From Pimelobacter simplex (GTDB lineage: Bacteria; Actinomycetota; Actinomycetes; Propionibacteriales; Nocardioidaceae), in the NCBI GenBank assembly GCA_016803235.1, contig JADCLI010000002.1, positions 142,059 through 206,058 on the forward strand: a stretch of DNA of 64,000 nt. The letters are read 5' to 3'. Position 1 is the first letter of the stretch. The number at the start of each line of letters is the position of its first letter. Under the pieces are notes generated by a model. That model worked only from the letters and a program-made list of their open reading frames with translations, did not search any database and was not told the DNA's origin. Shown here in pieces: positions 3,699-57,070 of this stretch. Position numbers and translations under genes: made by a program.

Positions 3699-3731
3699 AG
3701 TGAAGTTACTACATCATGTAGTAACTTCACT
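3699..3731. promoter_or_regulatory. 33-bp perfect palindrome, MarR operator
   Basis: The half-site AGTGAAGTTACTACAT (3699-3714) is followed by a central C and its exact reverse complement (3716-3731). The palindrome ends two bases before the MarR start codon and occupies the place of a ribosome site, so the mRNA is probably leaderless or the site is part of the operator. Its length exceeds the 16-20 bp typical of MarR boxes. Confidence 0.8.
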
Positions 3732-3733
3732 CC

Positions 3734-4183
3734 ATGACCTCGTCGACCCCTCGCGACGCCATCGACCGCCTGATGCAGCTGTCGATGCTGATCTCCAGCG
3801 ACCTCGGGCGCTACGAGAAGGAGTCCGGCCTCACCGCGCCGCGGATCCACCTGCTGTGGGAGCTCGGGCTCTCCGGGCCGCAGACCCAGCAGCGACTGGC
3901 CGCGGCGATGGACGTCACGCCGCGCAACGTGACCGGGCTCGTCGACGGCCTGGCCGCCTCCGGCCACGTCACCCGGGAGCCGCACCCCACCGACCGGCGC
4001 GCGACCCTGGTCACGCCGACCCCGGCCGGGCTCGCGGTCATCAAGGACAACCAGGACAGCTACGACGAGCTGGGCCGCCAGCTCTTCGGCGACCTTCCCG
4101 CGGGCCGCCTCGCCGACTTCACGGCCGTCCTCGACGCCACGATCGTCCGCTTCACCGCCCTCATGGAGGAGGCCGCGTCATGA
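3734..4183 (+). CDS. MarR family transcriptional regulator
   Basis: A 149-residue winged-helix protein. The recognition helix region is 'TQQRLAAAMDVTPRNVTGLVDGLAASGHVTREPHPTDRRATLV', with the classic MarR wing D-R-R. N- and C-terminal helices for dimerisation flank it. The long palindrome immediately upstream indicates autorepression. The ATGA overlap with the next gene couples it to a membrane protein of unknown role. The effector is unknown. Confidence 0.9.
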   Translation: MTSSTPRDAIDRLMQLSMLISSDLGRYEKESGLTAPRIHLLWELGLSGPQTQQRLAAAMDVTPRNVTGLVDGLAASGHVTREPHPTDRRATLVTPTPAGLAVIKDNQDSYDELGRQLFGDLPAGRLADFTAVLDATIVRFTALMEEAAS

Positions 4184-6053: not shown

Positions 6054-6935
6054 GTGAACGACGACGTCACCCTGGCCGCGGCCTTCGAGCAGCACCGCCG
6101 CCACCTGCACACGGTCGCCCACCGCGTGCTCGGCTCGGCCGCCGAGGCCGAGGACGCGGTCCAGGAGGCCTGGCTGCGGCTGCACCGCACCGACGCCGCC
6201 GAGATCGACAACCTCGGCGGCTGGCTCACGACGGTCGTCGGCCGGATCGCGCTCAACACGCTGCGCTCCCGCGCGACCCGCCGCGAGGATTCGCTGGAGG
6301 AGCGGGTCGAACGGCTGCCTGACCCCGTCGTGACGCCGTACGACGGCGCGTTGCCCGAGGAGCAGGCCCTGCTCGCCGACTCGGTCGGCCTGGCGCTGCT
6401 GGTCGTGCTCGACCAGCTGAGCCCGGCGGAGCGGATCGCGTTCGTGCTGCACGACCTGTTCGGCGTCCCGTTCGAGGAGATCGCACCGATCGTCGAGCGC
6501 ACGCCCGCGGCGACCCGCCAGCTCGCGAGCCGGGCGCGGCGCCGGGTCCGTGGCACCGACACCGTCCGCCCCGACCGCCCCGCGCGCCAGCGGGAGGTGG
6601 TCGACGCCTTCTTCGCCGCGGCCCACGCGGGCGACTTCGAGCGGCTGGTCGGCGTCCTCGCTCCCGACGTGGTGCTGCACTCCGACCTCGGCGCGCTGCG
6701 CGGCGGCGTCGTGACCTACCAGGGCGCCGAGACGATCGCCCGCAACGCGCTGATGTTCGCCCACCCCGACCGGGTCGTGCACCCGATGCTCGTCAGCGGG
6801 CGGGCGGGTGTGGTCGTCACGCTGCACGACGAGCTGTTCAGCGTCATGGCGTTCACCGTGGCCGGCGGCCGGATCGTCGCCGTCGACACCTGGACCGACC
6901 CGGAGGTGCTGGCGCGGGTGCCCCGTCGCACCTGA
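6054..6935 (+). CDS. ECF41-group (SigJ-like) RNA polymerase sigma factor
   Basis: A 293-residue sigma-70 family protein. Region 2 contains 'AEAEDAVQEAWLRLHRT'. The linker has 'RLPDPVV', where ECF41 proteins usually have a W-L-P-E-P motif. Region 4 is 'LSPAERIAFVLHDLFGVPFEEIA' with 'TRQLASRARRRV' as recognition helix. From about residue 180 a SnoaL-like domain is fused at the C-terminus and acts as a built-in regulator in ECF41 factors, replacing an anti-sigma factor. It is divergent from a CMD-family gene. The GTG start follows GAGGAGAGG. The last codons and stop lie inside a dispersed palindromic repeat. Confidence 0.9.
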   Translation: MNDDVTLAAAFEQHRRHLHTVAHRVLGSAAEAEDAVQEAWLRLHRTDAAEIDNLGGWLTTVVGRIALNTLRSRATRREDSLEERVERLPDPVVTPYDGALPEEQALLADSVGLALLVVLDQLSPAERIAFVLHDLFGVPFEEIAPIVERTPAATRQLASRARRRVRGTDTVRPDRPARQREVVDAFFAAAHAGDFERLVGVLAPDVVLHSDLGALRGGVVTYQGAETIARNALMFAHPDRVVHPMLVSGRAGVVVTLHDELFSVMAFTVAGGRIVAVDTWTDPEVLARVPRRT

Positions 6936-6985
6936 CGAACGGGCTGTCGATCGTCGCATCTGACGACCCATTCGTCAGGTGCGAC
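6925..6985. repeat. Dispersed palindrome family 1, copy 1
   Basis: The arms at 6925-6943 and 6967-6985 are 19 bp with one mismatch around a 23-nt loop. The 5' arm begins GTCGCACCTGACGAA and is shared with copies at 46740 and 55428. The loop here contains a near-copy of the arm, GTCGCATCTGACGA (6953-6966). The stop codon of the ECF41 sigma gene (6933-6935) lies within the 5' arm. There is no U-tract, so it is not a classic intrinsic terminator. Confidence 0.9.
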
Positions 6986-6999
6986 GCGGGCCCGGCGGA

Positions 7000-14382: not shown

Positions 14383-14445
14383 CGGTTCAACTACCGAATT
14401 TGTCGTGTCTGGAACGGTTCGGCTACAAGATCGGTAGTTGAACCG
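14383..14445. repeat. Perfect 15-bp inverted repeat with 33-nt loop
   Basis: CGGTTCAACTACCGA (14383-14397) and its exact complement (14431-14445) flank a 33-nt loop of lower GC content. It follows the ligase gene and precedes a kinase gene by 26 nt. It has no U-tract. It may be a terminator, an operator, or a unique member of a palindromic element class similar in build to family 1. Confidence 0.75.
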
Positions 14446-27005: not shown

Positions 27006-27095
27006 CCGCTCGCGACGTCCTCCGGGTCGCCGCCGCGTGCGCGCTGCGCTGCGCGGCGGCGGCCCTGGCCGGGGCGGTCGTGCCACGATCCTCCG

Positions 27096-27644
27096 GTGGC
27101 ACCGGTGACCGTCCGCCCCCGACGTGCTGCTGACCTGCCGGCGCTGGCCGCGGTGCTGAGGGAGCAGCAGCCGGCGACCCGGTACCCCTTCCGTGACCCG
27201 CTGCCGGTCCCGGTCGAGCAGTTCCTCCACGCCGACGACGCGGTGGCGGCCTGGACCGCGGAGGTCGAGGGCCGTCCGGTCGGCCACGTGTGCCGGACCG
27301 GGCCGGTCGCCGGCTTCCCGGACGCGGCGGCGTTGAACGGCGCCTGCGCCCGGGCCCACGGCTGCGAGGTCGCCGACCTCGGCTGGGTGAGCACGCTGTT
27401 CGTGGGCGCCGAGGTGCGCGGCCGGGGCGTCGGTCGGCTGCTGCTCGACGCCGTGGTCGCCGACCTCCGGGCGGCGGGCCTGCGCCCGTGCCTCGAGGTG
27501 CTGCCGGTCCACCCCGCGGCGCTGGCGCTCTACCGCCGGTCCGGGTGGACCGAGGTGCTCAGCCTGCGCCCGGACTGGCTGCGGGACGCGGTCGGCGAGG
27601 AAGGCCCGGACGTCGTCGTGATGGCGCTGCTGTCGCCTGGCTAG
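27096..27644 (+). CDS. GNAT family N-acetyltransferase
   Basis: A 182-residue GNAT protein. Acetyl-CoA binding is seen in 'LGWVSTLFVGAEVRGRGVGRLLLDAVV' and the final strand in 'HPAALALYRRSGWTEV'. The GTG at 27096 has no clear ribosome site and may be leaderless. Its TAG stop lies in the palindrome CTAG, which also serves as the stop of the convergent chromate transporter gene. The substrate is unknown. Confidence 0.85.
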   Translation: MAPVTVRPRRAADLPALAAVLREQQPATRYPFRDPLPVPVEQFLHADDAVAAWTAEVEGRPVGHVCRTGPVAGFPDAAALNGACARAHGCEVADLGWVSTLFVGAEVRGRGVGRLLLDAVVADLRAAGLRPCLEVLPVHPAALALYRRSGWTEVLSLRPDWLRDAVGEEGPDVVVMALLSPG

Positions 27645-29017
27645 CTGACCAGCCCCACCACGAAGGTCCCCACCCCGAGCGCCGCACACAGGCCGAGCGT
27701 CCGCAGCGGGCTCCAGCCGAGCCGGAACATGACGCCGAGCGCCACCGCGGTGATCGCGAAGGCCACCGGGTCCCAGGACGACAGGACGGGTACGTCGACG
27801 TGGAGCCACTCGGCATCGACGGCGCGGTTGCGGTCGAACAGGTTGTGCAGCGCGAAGAACACCGCGAGGTTCGCGATCACGCCGACCACGGCCGCGGTGA
27901 TGCCGGTCAGTGCGGCGCCCAGGCCGCGGTTGTCGCGGAGCCGCTCGACGTACGGCGCCCCGAGGAGCACGAACAGGAAGCACGGCACGAAGGTCACCCA
28001 GGTGACCAGCAGGGAGGCGAGCACGGCGGCGAGCCAGGGGTCCAGCGAGCCCGGGTTGCGGTAGGCACCGACGAAGGCGACGAACTGGACCACCATGATC
28101 AGCGGTCCGGGCGTCGTCTCGGCGAGGGCGAGGCCGCGGACCATCTCGCCGGGTGCGAGCCAGTGGTAGACGCCGACGGCCTGCTGGGCGACGTACGAGA
28201 GCACCGCGTAGGCGCCGCCGAAGGTGACCACCGCGGCCCCGGAGAAGAACAGGCCCTGGTCGACGAAGACGGGTGTGCCGGTGGTGCCGGCGAGGGCGGC
28301 GAAGGCCACGACCGGAGCGAACCAGGTGAACAGCCCGATCGCCAGGACGATGCCCGAGCGGCGCACGGTCGGCAGCTCGTGGTGCAGCGCGTCGTCGCTG
28401 ATCAGCGGCTCGGGCCCGTCGGCAGCGGCATGGGCAGGTGCCTCACGCAGGGCGGGAAGGCGCAGGCTGAGCAGCCAGCCGAGCAGCCCCGCCGCGAACA
28501 CCACGGCGGGGAAGGGCACGGCGAAGAAGGTGAGCGCCACGAAGGACGCGACGGCGAGGGCGACCAGCGCCGGGTGGTGCAGTGCCCGCTTCCCGACCCG
28601 GTGCACGGCCTGGACGACGATCGCGATCACGGCGGGCGCGACGCCGGCGAAGAGCGCGGTGACGAAGTCGGTCTCGCCGTACCCGACGTAGATGCCGGAC
28701 AGGGCGAGCAGGGCGAGCATCCCGGGCAGCACGAACAGGCCGCCCGCGATCAGGCCGCCGCGGATCCCGTTGAGCAGCCAGCCGGTGTAGATCGCGAGCT
28801 GCTGGGCCTCGGGGCCGGGCAGCAGCATGCAGAAGTTCAGCGCGTGCAGGAACCTCTTCTGCCCGATCCAGCGCTTCTCGTCGACCAGCTTGTGCTGCAT
28901 GACCGCGATCTGGCCGGCCGGCCCGCCGAAGGTCTGCAGCGAGATCTCGAACCAGGCCCGGGTCGCCTCGCGCAGGGGGATCACGTCGCCGCCGACAGGG
29001 CGGGGTTGACTGGTCAC
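27641..29017 (-). CDS. chrA: Chromate efflux transporter, two-domain CHR family
   Basis: About 458 residues consisting of two homologous CHR halves. Each half carries the family FGG motif ('TFGGPAGQIAVMQ' in the first, 'TFGGAYAVL' in the second), and 'LPGPEAQQLAIYTGW' is another conserved ChrA block. It would export chromate using the proton-motive force. The start is uncertain: GTG at 29017 ('TSQPRPV') is used here, with a TTG at 29029 as alternative. No ChrB-like regulator is adjacent. Confidence 0.9.
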   Translation of the reverse strand: MTSQPRPVGGDVIPLREATRAWFEISLQTFGGPAGQIAVMQHKLVDEKRWIGQKRFLHALNFCMLLPGPEAQQLAIYTGWLLNGIRGGLIAGGLFVLPGMLALLALSGIYVGYGETDFVTALFAGVAPAVIAIVVQAVHRVGKRALHHPALVALAVASFVALTFFAVPFPAVVFAAGLLGWLLSLRLPALREAPAHAAADGPEPLISDDALHHELPTVRRSGIVLAIGLFTWFAPVVAFAALAGTTGTPVFVDQGLFFSGAAVVTFGGAYAVLSYVAQQAVGVYHWLAPGEMVRGLALAETTPGPLIMVVQFVAFVGAYRNPGSLDPWLAAVLASLLVTWVTFVPCFLFVLLGAPYVERLRDNRGLGAALTGITAAVVGVIANLAVFFALHNLFDRNRAVDAEWLHVDVPVLSSWDPVAFAITAVALGVMFRLGWSPLRTLGLCAALGVGTFVVGLVS

Positions 29018-45808: not shown

Positions 45809-46729
45809 ATGGGCGTCGGGCACGGCCACGGCCACGGCGGCGGCACCCCCGGGCACGCCGGCGGTCGGCACCGCTGGCGGCTGGGTGTCTCGTTCGGGCT
45901 GATCGCGGCCTTCTTCGTCGTCGAACTGGTCGTCGGCCTGGTCAGCGGCTCGCTCGCGCTGATCTCCGACGCCGGCCACATGGCCGCCGACGTCGTCACC
46001 CTCGGGGCGGCGCTGGTCGCGACCAAGATCGCGACCCGCGCCGACAGCACCGGGCGGCGTACCTACGGGTCCTACCGGGCCGAGGTCTTCGCCTCGGGCC
46101 TGGCGGTGCTGATGATGCTCGGCGTCGCGGTCTACGTCGTGGTCGAGGCGATCGGCCGGATGGGCAGCCAGCCCGACGTCGAGACCGGCCCGATGCTCGT
46201 CGTCGGCTTCCTCGGGCTGGTCGTCAACCTGGTCGCGATGGCGCTGCTGCGCGGTGGGTCGCAGGACTCGCTCAACGTGAAGGGTGCCTACCTCGAGGTC
46301 GTCGCCGACACCGCCGGCAGCGTCGGGGTGTTGGTCGCGGGCGGCCTGATCGTCGCCACCGGCAACGGCGTGTGGGACACGGTCGTCGCCTTCCTCATCG
46401 GTGCCTTCGTCGCGGTCCGCGCGGTGATGCTCGGCCGCGAGGTGCTCGCCGTCCTCGGCCAGCACGTCCCCGCCGGCGTCGACATCGACACCGTCGCCGT
46501 CGCCCTCGGCGGCATCGACGGGGTGTGCGACGTCCACGACCTGCACGCCTGGACCCTCACGTCCGGCATGCACGTCGCCACCGCCCACCTCGTCCTCGTC
46601 GAGGGTGCCGACGGCACCGGAGTGCTCCGGCAGGGCCAGCTGCTGCTGCGCGAGCGGTTCCAGATCGAGCACGCCACGCTGCAGGTCGAGGGCCACCGCT
46701 CCGCCGCCTGCGACGCCGTCACGTGGTGA
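45809..46729 (+). CDS. CDF family Zn/Co/Cd efflux transporter (CzcD-like)
   Basis: A 306-residue CDF protein. A His/Gly-rich N-terminus ('GHGHGHGGG') precedes six helices with 'LALISDAGHMAADV' (site A H-x-x-x-D pattern) and 'LEVVADTAGSVGVL' in helix 5. The cytoplasmic domain 'DIDTVAVALGGIDGVCDVHDLHAWTLTSG' is intact. It exports Zn, Cd or Co in exchange for protons. GGAAGGGG supports the ATG at 45809. It is the third gene of the CmtR-like operon, ending 10 nt before a family-1 palindrome. Confidence 0.93.
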   Translation: MGVGHGHGHGGGTPGHAGGRHRWRLGVSFGLIAAFFVVELVVGLVSGSLALISDAGHMAADVVTLGAALVATKIATRADSTGRRTYGSYRAEVFASGLAVLMMLGVAVYVVVEAIGRMGSQPDVETGPMLVVGFLGLVVNLVAMALLRGGSQDSLNVKGAYLEVVADTAGSVGVLVAGGLIVATGNGVWDTVVAFLIGAFVAVRAVMLGREVLAVLGQHVPAGVDIDTVAVALGGIDGVCDVHDLHAWTLTSGMHVATAHLVLVEGADGTGVLRQGQLLLRERFQIEHATLQVEGHRSAACDAVTW

Positions 46730-46739
46730 CCTTCTCGAA

Positions 46740-46800
46740 GTCGCACCTGACGAACTGGCTGCGAATTGGGGCGTTCCGCAGCCCATTCGTCAGGTGCGAC
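46740..46800. repeat. Dispersed palindrome family 1, copy 2
   Basis: The 21-nt arms at 46740-46760 and 46780-46800 have two mismatches and a 19-nt loop; loop ends GCGAA and TTCCGC can extend the stem. It fills the gap between two convergent genes, 10 nt after one stop and 8 nt before the other. The arms share GTCGCACCTGACGAA with the other copies. Confidence 0.92.
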
Positions 46801-46808
46801 GCGGGGAC

Positions 46809-47465
46809 TCAGGCGTGCGCGAGGGAGAGCTTGACCGCGAACCCGAGGAAGATCGCGCCGACCGCCGACGTGCCCGCGGCCGAGAGGCCCTTGCGGCGGC
46901 GGAAGGCCGCGGCCAGGCGGGTCCCCCCGAAGATGAGCGCGCTGAGGTAGGCGACGCTGGCGACCTGGGCGAGCGTGCCGAGCACGAGGAAGGACAGCGC
47001 CGGGTGGGCGTAGCCGGGGTCCACGAACTGCACGAAGAAGGCGACGAAGAACAAGATCGCCTTCGGGTTGAGCAGGCTGACGACCAGCGCGCGACGGTAC
47101 GGACGCTCGCCCGGTACCGGGGGCGGCGCGCCCTCCTCCACGGCCGCGACCGCGCGGCGGCGCTGGCGCCACATGAGGACCGCGCCGCGCAGCATGGTGA
47201 AGGCGAGATAGCCGAGGTAGCCCGCGCCGACCCACTTCACGATCGAGAACGCGACGTCGTTGGCCTGCAGCAGCGACGCCACCCCAGCCGCCGACAGCGT
47301 CATCAGCACCGCGTCGCCGGTCCACACGCCGGCCGCGGCGGCGTACCCGTCCCGCACGCCGCGGCGCGCGGCCACCGAGAGGACGTAGAGCGAGTTCGGG
47401 CCGGGCAGCAGGATGATCATGATCAGGCCGACGAGGTACGTCGACAGGTCGGTGATGCCCAGCAC
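46809..47465 (-). CDS. LysE/RhtB family amino-acid exporter
   Basis: A 218-residue protein with six predicted helices. 'IILLPGPNSLYVLSVAARRGVRDGYAAAAGVWTGDAVLM' is the RhtB/LeuE N-terminal block with P-G-P-N-x-L, and 'VSLLNPKAILFFVAFFVQFV' the conserved N-P-K region. It exports amino acids such as leucine, lysine or homoserine. The GTG start lacks a clear ribosome site. Confidence 0.92.
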   Translation of the reverse strand: MLGITDLSTYLVGLIMIILLPGPNSLYVLSVAARRGVRDGYAAAAGVWTGDAVLMTLSAAGVASLLQANDVAFSIVKWVGAGYLGYLAFTMLRGAVLMWRQRRRAVAAVEEGAPPPVPGERPYRRALVVSLLNPKAILFFVAFFVQFVDPGYAHPALSFLVLGTLAQVASVAYLSALIFGGTRLAAAFRRRKGLSAAGTSAVGAIFLGFAVKLSLAHA

Positions 47466-48153: not shown

Positions 48154-48233
48154 GAGCCTCGAAACCACCGGACAGGCTGCCGGAAGGCTCCCGTGGTCAG
48201 GTCCCGGCAGCAGCCCCGGTGGTTTCGAGGCTC
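48154..48233. repeat. Large inverted repeat of family-2 sequence
   Basis: GAGCCTCGAAACCACCGG (48154-48171) is exactly complementary to 48216-48233. An inner pair CTGCCGG/CCGGCAG (48177-48183, 48204-48210) would extend the cruciform. The 18-bp arms carry the core of the family-2 repeat. Confidence 0.85.
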
Positions 48234-48237
48234 CTCG

Positions 48238-48327
48238 CTGGCGCTCGTCGCACCTCAACCACCGGGGCTGGCGCTCGTCGCACCTCGACCACCGGGGCTC
48301 GCGCTCGTCGCACCCCGACCACCGGGA
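48238..48327. repeat. Three tandem copies of a 30-bp family-2 repeat
   Basis: Units at 48238-48267, 48268-48297 and 48298-48327 follow the pattern CTGGCGCTCGTCGCACCTCG then ACCACCGGGG, with a few differences between copies. The period is exactly 30 bp without spacers, so it is not CRISPR. The last unit ends just before the stop of the Cache-domain gene. Confidence 0.92.
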
Positions 48328-54024: not shown

Positions 54025-55368
54025 ATGACCGAGTACGCCGTCCGCAACCCCGCGACCGGGGAGCTGGTCGAGACCTTCCCGACCGCCACCGACGCCGACA
54101 TCGCCGCCGCGATCGGCGCGGCCGCCGCGGCGTACGGCTCGTGGGGCCGGACCTCCAGCGTCGCCGACCGCGCGGCGCTGATCCGCCGCGTCGCCGAGCT
54201 GCACCGCGAGCGCAGCGCCGAGCTGTCCGCCGCGATGGTGGAGGAGATGGGCAAGCCGCTCGCCGACGCCGAGGGCGAGGTCGACTTCTCCGCGTCGATC
54301 TACGAGTTCTACGCCGACAACGCCGAGCGCTTCCTGGCCGACGAGCCGATCGAGCTCGGCGAGGGCGAGGGCACCGCGGTCGTCCGCAAGATGCCGGTCG
54401 GCGTGCTGCTCGGGATCATGCCGTGGAACTTCCCCGTCTACCAGATCGCCCGCTTCGCCGGCCCGAACCTGATCATCGGCAACACGATCCTGCTCAAGCA
54501 CGCGCCGCAGTGCCCGCGCTCGGCCGCCCTGCAGGAGCAGATCTTCAAGGACGCCGGCTTCCCCGAGGGCGCCTACGTCAACATCTACGCCACCAACGAG
54601 CAGATCGCCGACGTCATCGCCGACCCGCGCGTCCAGGGCGTCTCGCTCACCGGCTCCGAGCGGGCCGGCGCGGCCGTCGCCGAGATCGCCGGCCGCAACC
54701 TGAAGAAGGTCGTGCTCGAGCTCGGCGGCTCCGACCCGTTCATCGTGCTGTCCTCCGACGACCTCGACGCGACCGTCGAGGCCGCGGTCTTCGCGCGGAT
54801 GGACAACGCCGGCCAGGTCTGCAACGGCGGCAAGCGGTTCATCGTGGTCGACGGCCTGTACGACGAGTTCGTCGCCAAGTTCACCGAGAAGCTGCTCGAG
54901 GCCTCCGGCGGCTCCCCGCTGTCCTCGGTCACCGCCGCGGAGAACCTGGCCAAGCAGGTCGACGAGGCGGTCGCCGGCGGCGCGACGCTGGCCACCGCGG
55001 GCGAGCGCAACGGCGCGTTCTACCCCAGCGGTGTGCTCTCGGGCATCACGGCCGACAACCCGGCGTACCGCCAGGAGCTGTTCGGCCCGGTCGCGATGGT
55101 GTTCCGCGCGGCCGACGAGGCCGAGGCGGTGGAGATCGCCAACGACACGCCCTACGGCCTCGGCTCCTACGTCTTCTCCACCGACGCCGCGCAGGCCCAG
55201 CGGGTCGCCGACCAGATCGACGCCGGCATGGTCTTCGTCAACGGTGTCGGCCTCGACGCGGCCGAGCTGCCCTTCGGCGGCATCAAGCGCTCCGGCTTCG
55301 GTCGCGAGCTGAGCCGCTACGGCATGGAGGAGTTCGTCAACAAGAAGCTGATCCGCACCGTCGGCTGA
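54025..55368 (+). CDS. NAD(P)-dependent aldehyde dehydrogenase (succinate-semialdehyde type)
   Basis: A 447-residue ALDH. 'PWNFPVYQIARFAGPNLIIGNTILLKHAPQCP' binds the cofactor. The general base Glu is in 'VVLELGGSDPFIV' and the nucleophile Cys in 'AGQVCNGGKRF'. The C-terminal 'LPFGGIKRSGFGRELSRYGMEEFVNKK' is typical of succinate-semialdehyde/GabD-like enzymes. Behind a polyamine importer it probably oxidises an amine-derived aldehyde. AAGGAG is at 54010-54015. Confidence 0.93.
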   Translation: MTEYAVRNPATGELVETFPTATDADIAAAIGAAAAAYGSWGRTSSVADRAALIRRVAELHRERSAELSAAMVEEMGKPLADAEGEVDFSASIYEFYADNAERFLADEPIELGEGEGTAVVRKMPVGVLLGIMPWNFPVYQIARFAGPNLIIGNTILLKHAPQCPRSAALQEQIFKDAGFPEGAYVNIYATNEQIADVIADPRVQGVSLTGSERAGAAVAEIAGRNLKKVVLELGGSDPFIVLSSDDLDATVEAAVFARMDNAGQVCNGGKRFIVVDGLYDEFVAKFTEKLLEASGGSPLSSVTAAENLAKQVDEAVAGGATLATAGERNGAFYPSGVLSGITADNPAYRQELFGPVAMVFRAADEAEAVEIANDTPYGLGSYVFSTDAAQAQRVADQIDAGMVFVNGVGLDAAELPFGGIKRSGFGRELSRYGMEEFVNKKLIRTVG

Positions 55369-55402: not shown

Positions 55403-55423
55403 GAGCCTCGGAACCTCAGGCTC
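55403..55423. terminator. Possible hairpin downstream of the aldehyde dehydrogenase gene
   Basis: GAGCCT (55403-55408) pairs with AGGCTC (55418-55423) around a 9-nt loop, 35 nt after the stop. The 6-bp stem without a U-tract makes this weak as a terminator. Confidence 0.3.
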
Positions 55424-55694
55424 CACCACGCACCTGACGAATGGGCTCCGTTTCGGGTTGATACCCAGCCCATTCGTCAGGTGCGTCGCTGTACCGGGCC
55501 GCGAGCAGGTCGACCAGCCCCGGCACGTCCTCGAGGGCGAGCTGGAAGCTGCCGGTGCAGACGTTGTCGCGCCACAGCGAGAGGACGACCACCTCGGCCT
55601 CCGCGTGCCAGCTCACCCGCATCGCGCGGCCGTCCCCGCGGGCGTCGAGGTAGGCAGCGCCCGCGCTCGGGAGGGGCTGGTGGACCCGGCGCAT
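55416..55694 (-). CDS. Small conserved actinobacterial protein with repeat-derived tail
   Basis: A 92-residue protein. The body 'MRVSWHAEAEVVVLSLWRDN' with 'CTGSFQLALEDVPGLVDLLAARYSDA' is a conserved actinobacterial hypothetical, predicted to be a small alpha/beta protein. From about residue 67 to the end, the sequence ('PDEWAGYQPETEPIRQVRGGA') is encoded by family-1 palindrome copy 3, so the natural C-terminus has been replaced. Function is unknown. Confidence 0.75.
   Translation of the reverse strand: MRRVHQPLPSAGAAYLDARGDGRAMRVSWHAEAEVVVLSLWRDNVCTGSFQLALEDVPGLVDLLAARYSDAPDEWAGYQPETEPIRQVRGGA
55428..55486. repeat. Dispersed palindrome family 1, copy 3
   Basis: Perfect 20-bp arms (55428-55447 and 55467-55486) flank a 19-nt loop with a small GGGT-TGAT-ACCC hairpin inside. 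The arm reads ACGCACCTGACGAATGGGCT. It lies between convergent genes and is translated as the end of the small protein on the minus strand. Confidence 0.93.
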
Positions 55695-55739
55695 GGCCCC
55701 ATCATGAGCCGGGGTGCGCCGGCCTGTCACCGGTTCGAG

Positions 55740-55777
55740 GGTTTCGAGGCTCGCTGGCGCTCGCACCTCAACCACCG
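55740..55777. repeat. Family-2 dispersed repeat, single copy
   Basis: A 38-bp unit beginning GGTTTCGAGGCTCGCTGGCG and ending CACCTCAACCACCG, matching the arms and tandem units at 48154-48327. It lies between two reverse-strand genes and directly before the stop of the glyoxalase gene. Confidence 0.85.
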
Positions 55778-55786
55778 AGTTGACCG

Positions 55787-56176
55787 TCAGGCCTCCTGCG
55801 GCGGGCACAGGCAGAACGGGTGCCCGTCGGGGTCGAGCATGACCCGCCACGCGCCGCCCGCCTCGGCGGCGGGCTGGGTGTCGGCCACGGTCGCGCCGAG
55901 CGAACGGGCGTGCTCGGTCGCGGCCTCGAGGTCGGGGACCCGGAAGTCCAGGTGGAACTGCTGCGGGTGGGCCTGGCCGGGCCACTGCGGGCGGGAGAAG
56001 TCCTCGACCGTCTGGAAGTTGAAGGTGGCGCCGAGGACGGAGGCGGAGGCGTAGCCGTACTCCGGGTAGTCCCCGGTCACCTCGCCGCCGGTCAGGTCGG
56101 CGTAGAAGCGGGCCAGCGCGGCGGCGTCGGCCGAGTCGATGGTGAACGCGATGAGCTCGGTCACGGGAGAGGTCAT
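55787..56176 (-). CDS. Glyoxalase/VOC family protein
   Basis: A 129-residue single-domain VOC protein: 'LIAFTIDSADAAALARFYADLTGG' at the start, 'QFHLDFRVPDLEAATEHARSLGA' in the middle and 'WRVMLDPDGHPFCLCPP' at the end, the last being typical of a widespread actinobacterial subfamily without known substrate. It is divergent from an AraC-type regulator that may control it. Confidence 0.9.
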   Translation of the reverse strand: MTSPVTELIAFTIDSADAAALARFYADLTGGEVTGDYPEYGYASASVLGATFNFQTVEDFSRPQWPGQAHPQQFHLDFRVPDLEAATEHARSLGATVADTQPAAEAGGAWRVMLDPDGHPFCLCPPQEA

Positions 56177-56227
56177 GTCCCCACCTTCTCCCGGCGCACC
56201 GACACCGGTCTTGAAAGAATCCGACAC

Positions 56228-57070
56228 GTGCGCTGGACACCGGACGGACCGCTCGACGTGGTCGAGCCCGCCGCCCTGCGCGACGTCCGCGGCTTCGCCC
56301 CCTCGCTGCGCCGCTACGCCCCACCGCCGGCGCTCGCCGACGCGGTGCGCCGGTTCTGGGTGCCCGTCTGGTCGCTGCCCCCGGGGCAGACCTCGGTGCA
56401 GCGGGTGCTGCAGTACCCCGTGTGCCAGGTCGTCGTCGGCCCGGACGGCGGGCAGCTGGTCGGCCCGCACGCCGGGCTGGGCACCGAGGAGCTCTCGGGG
56501 TCCGGGTGGGTGGTCGGGGTCATGATGCAGCCGGCCGCCGGTCAGGCGCTGGTCGGGGGCCCGGTGGCCGAGCTCACCGATCGCCGGCGCTCCCTGGCCG
56601 ACGTGGCGGGCCTCGACGCGGCGGGGCTGGTCGCCGCGGTGAGGGATGCCCTCGGGGACGACCCCGCGGAGGTCGCCCGGCAGCAGGAGGCGTGCGCACT
56701 GGTCGCCGAGGCGCTGGCCGTGCTCGTGCCCGTGGACGACGAGGGGCGGTTGGTCAACGCGATCGTGGAGTACGTCGAGGGCGAGCGCGACGTGCAGCGG
56801 GTCTCCCAGGTGTGCGAGAAGTTCGACCTCGGCGAGCGGGCGCTCCAGCGGTTGACCCGGCGCCGGATCGGCCTCTCGCCGAAGTGGCTCGTGCAGCGCC
56901 GCCGGCTGCATGACGCGGCCGACCTGCTCCGCGCGGGCGATCGGGTCGACCTGGCGCGGGTCGCCGCCGAGCTGGGGTACGCCGACCAGGCGCACTTCAC
57001 CCGCGACTTCCGCTCGGTCACCGGCGTCACGCCGGGGGAGTTCAGCGCGGAGCCGCCGGCTCGAGCCTGA
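56228..57070 (+). CDS. AraC family regulator with DUF6597-type N-terminal domain
   Basis: A 280-residue regulator. The N-terminal half ('LADAVRRFWVPVWSLPPGQTSVQRVLQYPVCQVVVG') matches the cupin-like DUF6597 domain. The C-terminal HTH region, 'VSQVCEKFDLGERALQRLTRRRIGLSPKWL' and 'VAAELGYADQAHFTRDFRSVTGVTPGEF', is a normal AraC pair. The GTG start has no ribosome site and follows an AAGAAT-like -10, so it is probably leaderless. Its 3' end overlaps the convergent GNAT gene by 29 bases. Confidence 0.88.
   Translation: MRWTPDGPLDVVEPAALRDVRGFAPSLRRYAPPPALADAVRRFWVPVWSLPPGQTSVQRVLQYPVCQVVVGPDGGQLVGPHAGLGTEELSGSGWVVGVMMQPAAGQALVGGPVAELTDRRRSLADVAGLDAAGLVAAVRDALGDDPAEVARQQEACALVAEALAVLVPVDDEGRLVNAIVEYVEGERDVQRVSQVCEKFDLGERALQRLTRRRIGLSPKWLVQRRRLHDAADLLRAGDRVDLARVAAELGYADQAHFTRDFRSVTGVTPGEFSAEPPARA

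Follow-up and report, generated by a model that had tools for sequence, protein, structure and literature searches.

Dispersed 63-bp palindromes in Pimelobacter simplex and a cognate AbiEi/nuclease-like gene: a probable REPIN-like partnership with an enzyme other than RAYT

Among the known systems closest to the palindromes reported here is REPIN/RAYT, with which our family shares, going by the relevant passages of PMC3116915, two inverted near-invariant ends, a spacer conserved in length more than in sequence, compensatory changes, an extragenic location and linkage to a partner gene. A second comparison is offered by the CGTC repeats of Di Nocera et al. 2013, which lack a dedicated transposase according to extracts from that paper (PMC3733652). 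A third concerns the protein: the portion of PMC7319586 drawn on here reports that the site bound by Streptococcus agalactiae AbiEi consists of two 23-bp inverted repeats with 3 bp between them, and that this protein and Rv2827c do not bind each other's repeats. We consider it probable that the palindromes of Pimelobacter simplex are REPIN-like non-autonomous repeats whose copying is driven by an AbiEi–PD-(D/E)XK nuclease-like partner in place of RAYT. The family resembles a type of tiny genomic parasite that is already known, with a different enzyme. Its palindromes in the window, by which we mean the whole stretch of 64,000 nucleotides that was analysed, are the following:

6924-6986, type-1 palindrome, copy 1, 63 bp, between tandem genes
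14383-14445, type-2 palindrome, 63 bp, with the CGGTTCAACTACCGAATTTG arm, between tandem genes
46739-46801, type-1 palindrome, copy 2, between the convergent genes 45809-46729 (+) and 46809-47465 (-)
55426-55488, type-1 palindrome, copy 3, downstream of gene 54025-55368 (+)

The type-1 copies had been picked out in an earlier note (at 6925, 46740 and 55428), and all three were located there as 63-bp units, each with both of its 12-nt cores exact. With up to two mismatches allowed, the window holds 18 cores, 6 of them exact, against 6.3 expected in shuffles, and none of 100 shuffles reached 18. The TGA at 6933-6935 in copy 1 serves the upstream gene (6054-6935) as stop codon, and this gene by eye we take to be sigma-factor-like; judged in the same way, the neighbours of copy 2 are presumably cation-efflux-like (45809-46729) and LysE-like (46809-47465), and the gene upstream of copy 3 (54025-55368) aldehyde-dehydrogenase-like. 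The centre of copy 1 contains a third arm-like stretch, GCATCTGACGAC, at 6956-6967, which gives a nested smaller palindrome. Copy 3 is also found at the same place in Nocardioides sp. SLBN-35, and a minus-strand ORF (55416-56324) reads through it. Elsewhere in the window, a palindrome spanning 80 bp (GAGCCTCGAAACCACCGG...) adjoins three 30-bp tandem repeats, GCTGGCGCTCGTCGCACCTCGACCACCGGG, at 48154-48326, apparently another repeat type, and a perfect 16-bp inverted repeat (AGTGAAGTTACTACAT) with a 1-nt spacer, a possible operator, lies at 3699-3731 just upstream of an ORF at 3734 that we take, by eye, to be MarR-like. An Rfam scan of the window matched only a cobalamin riboswitch (RF00174; 32133-32315, minus strand).

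The genome to which the window belongs (G000; 5.36 Mb, a draft of 82 contigs) contains 19 exact core-gap-core copies of the type-1 unit, and every gap is 31 nt, when 10-40 nt were allowed, which corrects the variable-length loop first described. Fixing the gap at 31 and allowing up to three mismatches added 6 further copies, so that a family thought to number three has 25, and a reversed-pattern control gave 0 matches in the same genome. A covariance model with indels allowed, trained on the 25 own copies and one of G014 (26 in all), found the same 25 (68-90 bits on the best strand) and then just two weak matches of 38 and 36 bits; the arm uniformity in this genome is therefore not made by the search pattern. 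The unit measures 55 bp between core ends and ~63 bp overall, with 12-nt near-invariant arm cores (perfect in 48 of 50 arms) and a drifting centre. Column conservation over the 25 copies falls from 0.98-0.99 in the cores and 0.93-0.94 in the feet to 0.82-0.86 in the inner arms and 0.61 in the centre, with 0.43-0.55 in the flanks, and the CGTC foot pairs with GACG in most copies. Since the centres have a mean pairwise identity of 0.47 vs 0.25 when shuffled, the copies seem to derive from one another. Base pairs are intact in 92% of cells and 8 of the 25 pairs show double changes; five measures of pairing were matched in 1 to 26 of 500 shuffles.

Positions relative to genes were called with a simple, crude codon-usage gene caller, by which 13 of the 25 own copies lie between convergent genes, 8 between tandem genes and none between divergent genes; a further 3 fall within called ORFs, and the last one lies at the edge of a contig. 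The 70 gene junctions of the window divide into 10 convergent, 51 tandem and 9 divergent, so convergent junctions are enriched among the intergenic copies (13/21 vs 10/70, P 7e-7). The stem recurs across the genome, as the earlier note had proposed to check, and its copies are not scattered at random inside genes. That note had placed all three window copies at gene 3' ends, two of them between convergent genes: this holds for copy 2, copy 1 lies between tandem genes, and for copy 3 the two runs of the caller disagree, as a convergent neighbour 298 bp away in one run is missing from the window-wide run. One of the copies (L020) lies in frame within a 538-aa ORF, the downstream part of which we take, by eye, to be menD-like.

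The location of the copies, crude as the gene calls are, is one of three observations in favour of regarding the palindromes as immobile elements which the host selects, where genes end in convergent or tandem order, to terminate transcription in both directions or to stabilise mRNA 3' ends; the others are the strong RNA folds computed for the window copies, which for all three lie between -41.2 and -44.5 kcal/mol (z -7.5 to -8.9), and the use of the arm's own TGA (CACC-TGA-CG) as a stop codon at 8 gene ends in 7 copies. Nevertheless, we regard such a role as an unlikely explanation of the family. The GC-rich stem followed by a T run of an intrinsic terminator was not found around copy 2, where a scan of 46500-47000 returned 0 T-tract terminators, and no T run is visible at copies 1 and 3 on inspection of the sequence. 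Moreover, the core sequence is fixed beyond pairing, with 10 of the 25 pairs never varying. Two further observations against a pure terminator, the absence of copy 2 from its junction in relatives and the bracketed gene, are taken up below.

Strict matches in named genomes occur in Nocardioides sp. SLBN-35 (two), N. carbamazepini (one) and Nocardioides sp. Root682 (one), and among 39 near genomes strict arms were present only in the own genome and G014. Relatives recognised by the covariance model (R1) are more widespread, in 62 of 147 Nocardioides genomes, own included, so the stem is found in relatives as well. In the between-genome comparison, which took in a fetched part of the covariance matches, arms vary among genomes yet still pair, for example CGTCGTACCGGACGAAATGG in G099, CGTCGTACCTGAAGTTTCGG in G065 and GGTAGTCCCTGACGAATTGG in G092. 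For ten own copies, both flanks can be aligned with those of a copy in a relative (G153, G137, G048, G014 or SLBN-35); 14 candidate pairs were considered, and those left out of the count are L003/L083, which is not orthologous, and L005/L078, L021/L077 and L022/L087, in which the alignment is limited to a single flank or to the surroundings of a gap. Both arms differ between the two genomes, and remain matched, in 7 of these ten pairs (e.g. L010/G014, L015/G014, L024/G137), and in the other 3 the core is essentially unchanged (L005/G137, L009/SLBN-35, L013/G048). With ten own copies shared in position with a relative, movement would be slow; there may also have been independent insertion at orthologous spots.

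Gain or loss of a copy can be seen at an orthologous junction. At the junction of window copy 2, aligned in 10 genomes, the element is present in G000, G048 and G153 and missing from the same convergent junction in six relatives (G137, G047, G070, G099, G159, G113), which argues against a terminator maintained by the host. The filled and empty sites at this junction yielded no clean junction and no clean target-site duplication, and the analysis turned up no transposition event, no intermediate and no target-site duplication. A second candidate empty site, at window 27071-27647, was rejected as not clean, the own genome having extra sequence with an open frame there. In G056, the junction orthologous to window 46730-46808 carries a different palindromic insert (L172, of the GAGGTGTTGGTTCTGG... 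type); this genome has no member of the partner family described below at E 1e-10.

In four genomes (G000, G153, G107, G111), two copies ~1.15 kb apart have one homologous gene between them, encoding a protein of ~344 aa. The earlier note had seen no linked transposase, which is true of the three window copies; elsewhere, another pair of copies thus brackets a gene, and that gene is nuclease-like. At E 1e-10, a profile of the four proteins has relatives in 132 of 147 Nocardioides genomes, each with 1 to 5 of them. We take the gap between these 132 genomes and the 62 with R1 palindromes to reflect the narrowness of the R1 model, as checked for the fetched loci. The flank test took the best palindrome in the 250 bp next to either end of a gene and asked for a score of at least 13 and a span of at least 45, criteria fixed after an earlier palindrome scan of the same loci. 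By this test, palindromes flanked 23 of the best 30 matches on both sides and 29 of the 30 on at least one side. By comparison, of 238 control pieces (260 bp each) cut from these loci at a distance from the gene, 2 passed, as did 10 of 246 pieces of the window, its own elements included. A second set of 20 further genes, taken later from profile matches without a fetched locus, gave 18/20 on both sides and 20/20 on at least one.

The two palindromes of one gene belong together. In 25 of 25 loci with palindromes of score 11 on both sides (L104, L106, L108, L111 and L117 being left out), the upstream and downstream arms share a 14-mer (13-14 of 14); a 16-mer comparison with limited offset gave three low values, and without that limit the match is 13-14 of 14 in all 25. 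Protein identity correlates with arm similarity (Mantel r 0.48, 0/5000 permutations), and arms are sometimes common to different genes, with 43 of 600 cross pairs reaching 15 of 16. The two flanking copies show no overall preference of orientation (10 direct and 11 inverted of 25). In L101, L122, L110 and L096 the flanking pairs have near-identical centres (23-nt identity 0.78-0.96) and all are direct, as if one copy had been duplicated. In a sample of 296 Actinomycetota genomes, 21 (own included) have relatives at E <=1e-8, and among the 28 loci outside the own genome, which hold distant homologues, flanking is weaker, with palindromes on both sides in 10 and on at least one side in 21 (control, 3/166), and arms that match in 7 of the 10 flanked on both sides. 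We regard the association of gene and cognate palindrome as well supported. A role as terminator or in RNA is an insufficient account, because the partner gene and its matching arms, the lineage-specific arms and the fixed length are left unexplained; terminator action may be a side effect.

The pairing is clearest where one genome holds several genes. G153 has five gene copies and, among the 42 of 43 listed R1 copies that were sorted, five arm families, one per gene; one of these families consists only of the two copies beside its gene. Three of the genes were seen first, with three families, and the remaining two genes carry the remaining two arm types; the presence of these last two pairings had been predicted and was borne out, in the order opposite to our guess. 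For the CAACTACCG type in G153, three foot bases distinguish the arms beside the gene (CGGTTCAACTACCG) from those of the dispersed copies (CGTCGCAACTACCG). In the own genome, a second gene copy (C14:63418-64440) is flanked by TCAACTACCG palindromes, the type of which window 14383-14445 is a dispersed member; this type-2 family has 4 strictly matching own-genome copies and one flank of the C14 gene with a mismatch. A third, weak member of the partner family is found at C11:282035. Perfect cores, in genomes with the gene, number 11/22 (type 1), 3/40 (type 2) and 7/12 (type 3) in G153 and 21/32 (type 2) in G048, and, for type 1 where no intact cognate gene was seen, 7/12 in G048 (without rows L263, L264 and L268 in the core-decay counts, their register being shifted) and 6/16 in G137, so that core uniformity does not separate genomes with the gene from those without it. 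One member of the partner family in G137 (L259, G137:C1:2181057-2181716) matches profile positions 127-347 only, its N-terminal part being unmatched, with an R1 palindrome ~0.3 kb away.

Thirty Nocardioides members of the partner family gave stray single-member matches only against Pfam, NCBIfam and PHROGs (the best in Pfam being DUF2726, 0.0016, one member); none of the 30 matches DUF559 to E 10 or AbiEi in Pfam. Matches to the PDB obtained with a 4-row profile (best 0.018) were gone with a 30-row profile and were set aside. The AbiEi profiles of PADLOC match up to 21 of the 30 members (to E 10; best 3.6e-8), over about residues 103-183 of the first member. Farther along, E194, N195, W197, E201, P234-D235, D238, E246-Y247-x-G249 and H252 are invariant or near-invariant. 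Of ten distant homologues scanned, two (L155, L157) match DUF559 above the Pfam cut-off, one (L161) passes the cut-off for AbiEi_4, and eight match the restriction-endonuclease-like MTES_1575 below the cut-off; L155 has a palindrome on one side, and L157 and L161 on both. In hhalign, the profiles of the 30 Nocardioides proteins and of 12 distant ones align over 297 columns (E 8e-39), which, as judged from these sequence profiles, makes the Nocardioides family a remote, full-length homologue of the AbiEi/DUF559 proteins of other families. The C-terminal region is predicted to be PD-(D/E)XK nuclease-like, from the hhalign link and the features of the DUF559/Vsr fold; the canonical catalytic lysine of that fold is, to our eye, not evident.

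If the partner protein were an AbiEi-type regulator, or a nucleoid-type protein, the upstream palindrome would be its own operator, the dispersed copies would be regulatory sites, and the protein would copy nothing. Consistent with this, a distance of 51-159 nt separates the end of the upstream palindrome from the matched start of the gene, the cores are conserved by sequence, and, within the sections of PMC7319586 used here, AbiEi antitoxins bind inverted repeats at their own promoter, two of them without cross-binding. However, none of the 21 intergenic own copies lies between divergent genes, the downstream palindrome overlaps or follows the gene end, the partner retains a conserved nuclease-like region, and the centres share ancestry, unlike independently arisen sites. 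We therefore find it improbable that regulation accounts for the family. That the palindromes are MITE or IS remnants, or REPINs moved by an undetected RAYT or other transposase, with the bracketed gene a passenger, seems to us very unlikely, even with a REPIN-like anatomy (as far as PMC3116915 is excerpted here) and a draft genome of 82 contigs. The RAYT-like transposase suggested at the outset did not materialise: Y1_Tnp (PF01797) has 0 matches in the own genome vs matches in 5 of 14 control genomes, and the linked gene is of another family. Besides, palindromes of different kinds bracket members of this one gene family in many genomes, some of them from other families of the phylum, and neither plasmid searches by DNA and by one family protein, nor a phage search by the same protein, nor a search of viral contigs by peptide patterns found a relative.

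We infer, then, that a partner protein binds and cleaves its own palindrome and drives its copying. The substrate would be the ~63-bp unit of two inverted arms, the centre being held for length and pairing more than for sequence, and the enzyme the cognate protein encoded between two palindromes of the same type, with its AbiEi-type DNA-binding part and its DUF559/PD-(D/E)XK-type nuclease-like part. Binding most likely involves one protein domain per arm, a natural guess since two inverted arms of AbiEi-site-like length surround a short centre. The nuclease might then nick or cut the palindrome as duplex, cruciform or single-strand hairpin, after which copies would be excised, copied or inserted, by hairpin excision as proposed for REPINs or by repair-driven copying. 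Those that survive would mostly lie immediately after stop codons or where two genes converge. The arm cores, constrained by the protein's recognition of them, would shift with it between lineages. Of the options listed in the earlier note, a mobile REP-like element combined with a protein site fits best, a RAYT does not, and an effect on termination or on RNA may follow as a consequence. We also lean slightly towards a bolder statement, that every paralogue of this large, mostly unannotated Actinomycetota family founds and maintains a ~63-bp population with private arms, which would make it the first non-HUH REPIN-like engine. If true, several protein-palindrome pairs would co-evolve in one genome, a widespread unannotated actinobacterial family would gain a function, and the REPIN way of life would have arisen with an unrelated enzyme. 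The pairs would form a natural series for studying recognition by AbiEi-type domains, with arm-by-arm specificity, and the family would be a candidate dedicated gene for short palindromes, some families of which have no known mover.

Searches of open-licence PMC papers, outside which subscription journals and preprints mostly lie, brought up no report of palindrome-bracketed AbiEi/DUF559 genes. With the AbiEi antitoxins of type IV toxin-antitoxin systems, the partner shares an AbiEi-like part, recognised through PADLOC, and a repeat geometry similar to that of two studied members (PMC7319586, in the extracts considered), but it has a nuclease-like C-terminal region and its cognate repeats are dispersed genome-wide. 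With the DUF559/Vsr-like PD-(D/E)XK proteins it shares the conserved E...PD-L-x-D...E-Y-x-G-xx-H pattern and profile-profile homology to DUF559-matching proteins, although the Nocardioides members themselves miss the Pfam model. The CGTC-tagged REPs resemble the type-1 palindromes, whose arms start CGTC (many other Nocardioides arms start GGTAG or GATAG), and also in their 3'-end location and intragenic copies, as passages of PMC3733652 describe them; those passages give them as 20-40-bp stem-loops with an unpaired tag at one end, whereas the unit here is 63 bp, with a paired foot, and has a dedicated gene. The words Nocardioides and actinobacteri- do not occur in the text of PMC3733652. REPIN/RAYT differs in its Y1/HUH transposase, where the partner here is AbiEi-DUF559-like, and in that here the whole 63 bp are one palindrome; REPs, moreover, usually exceed 100 copies (PMC2817692, in the part cited), against 25 of type 1. 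We call the family REPIN-like and do not file it under REPIN/RAYT because no RAYT was found in the own genome and the copy number is low. Its type-1 palindromes nevertheless have the conserved inverted ends and length-conserved spacer of a REPIN, and its partner gene is flanked by the repeats as a RAYT gene is, with another gene family in that place.
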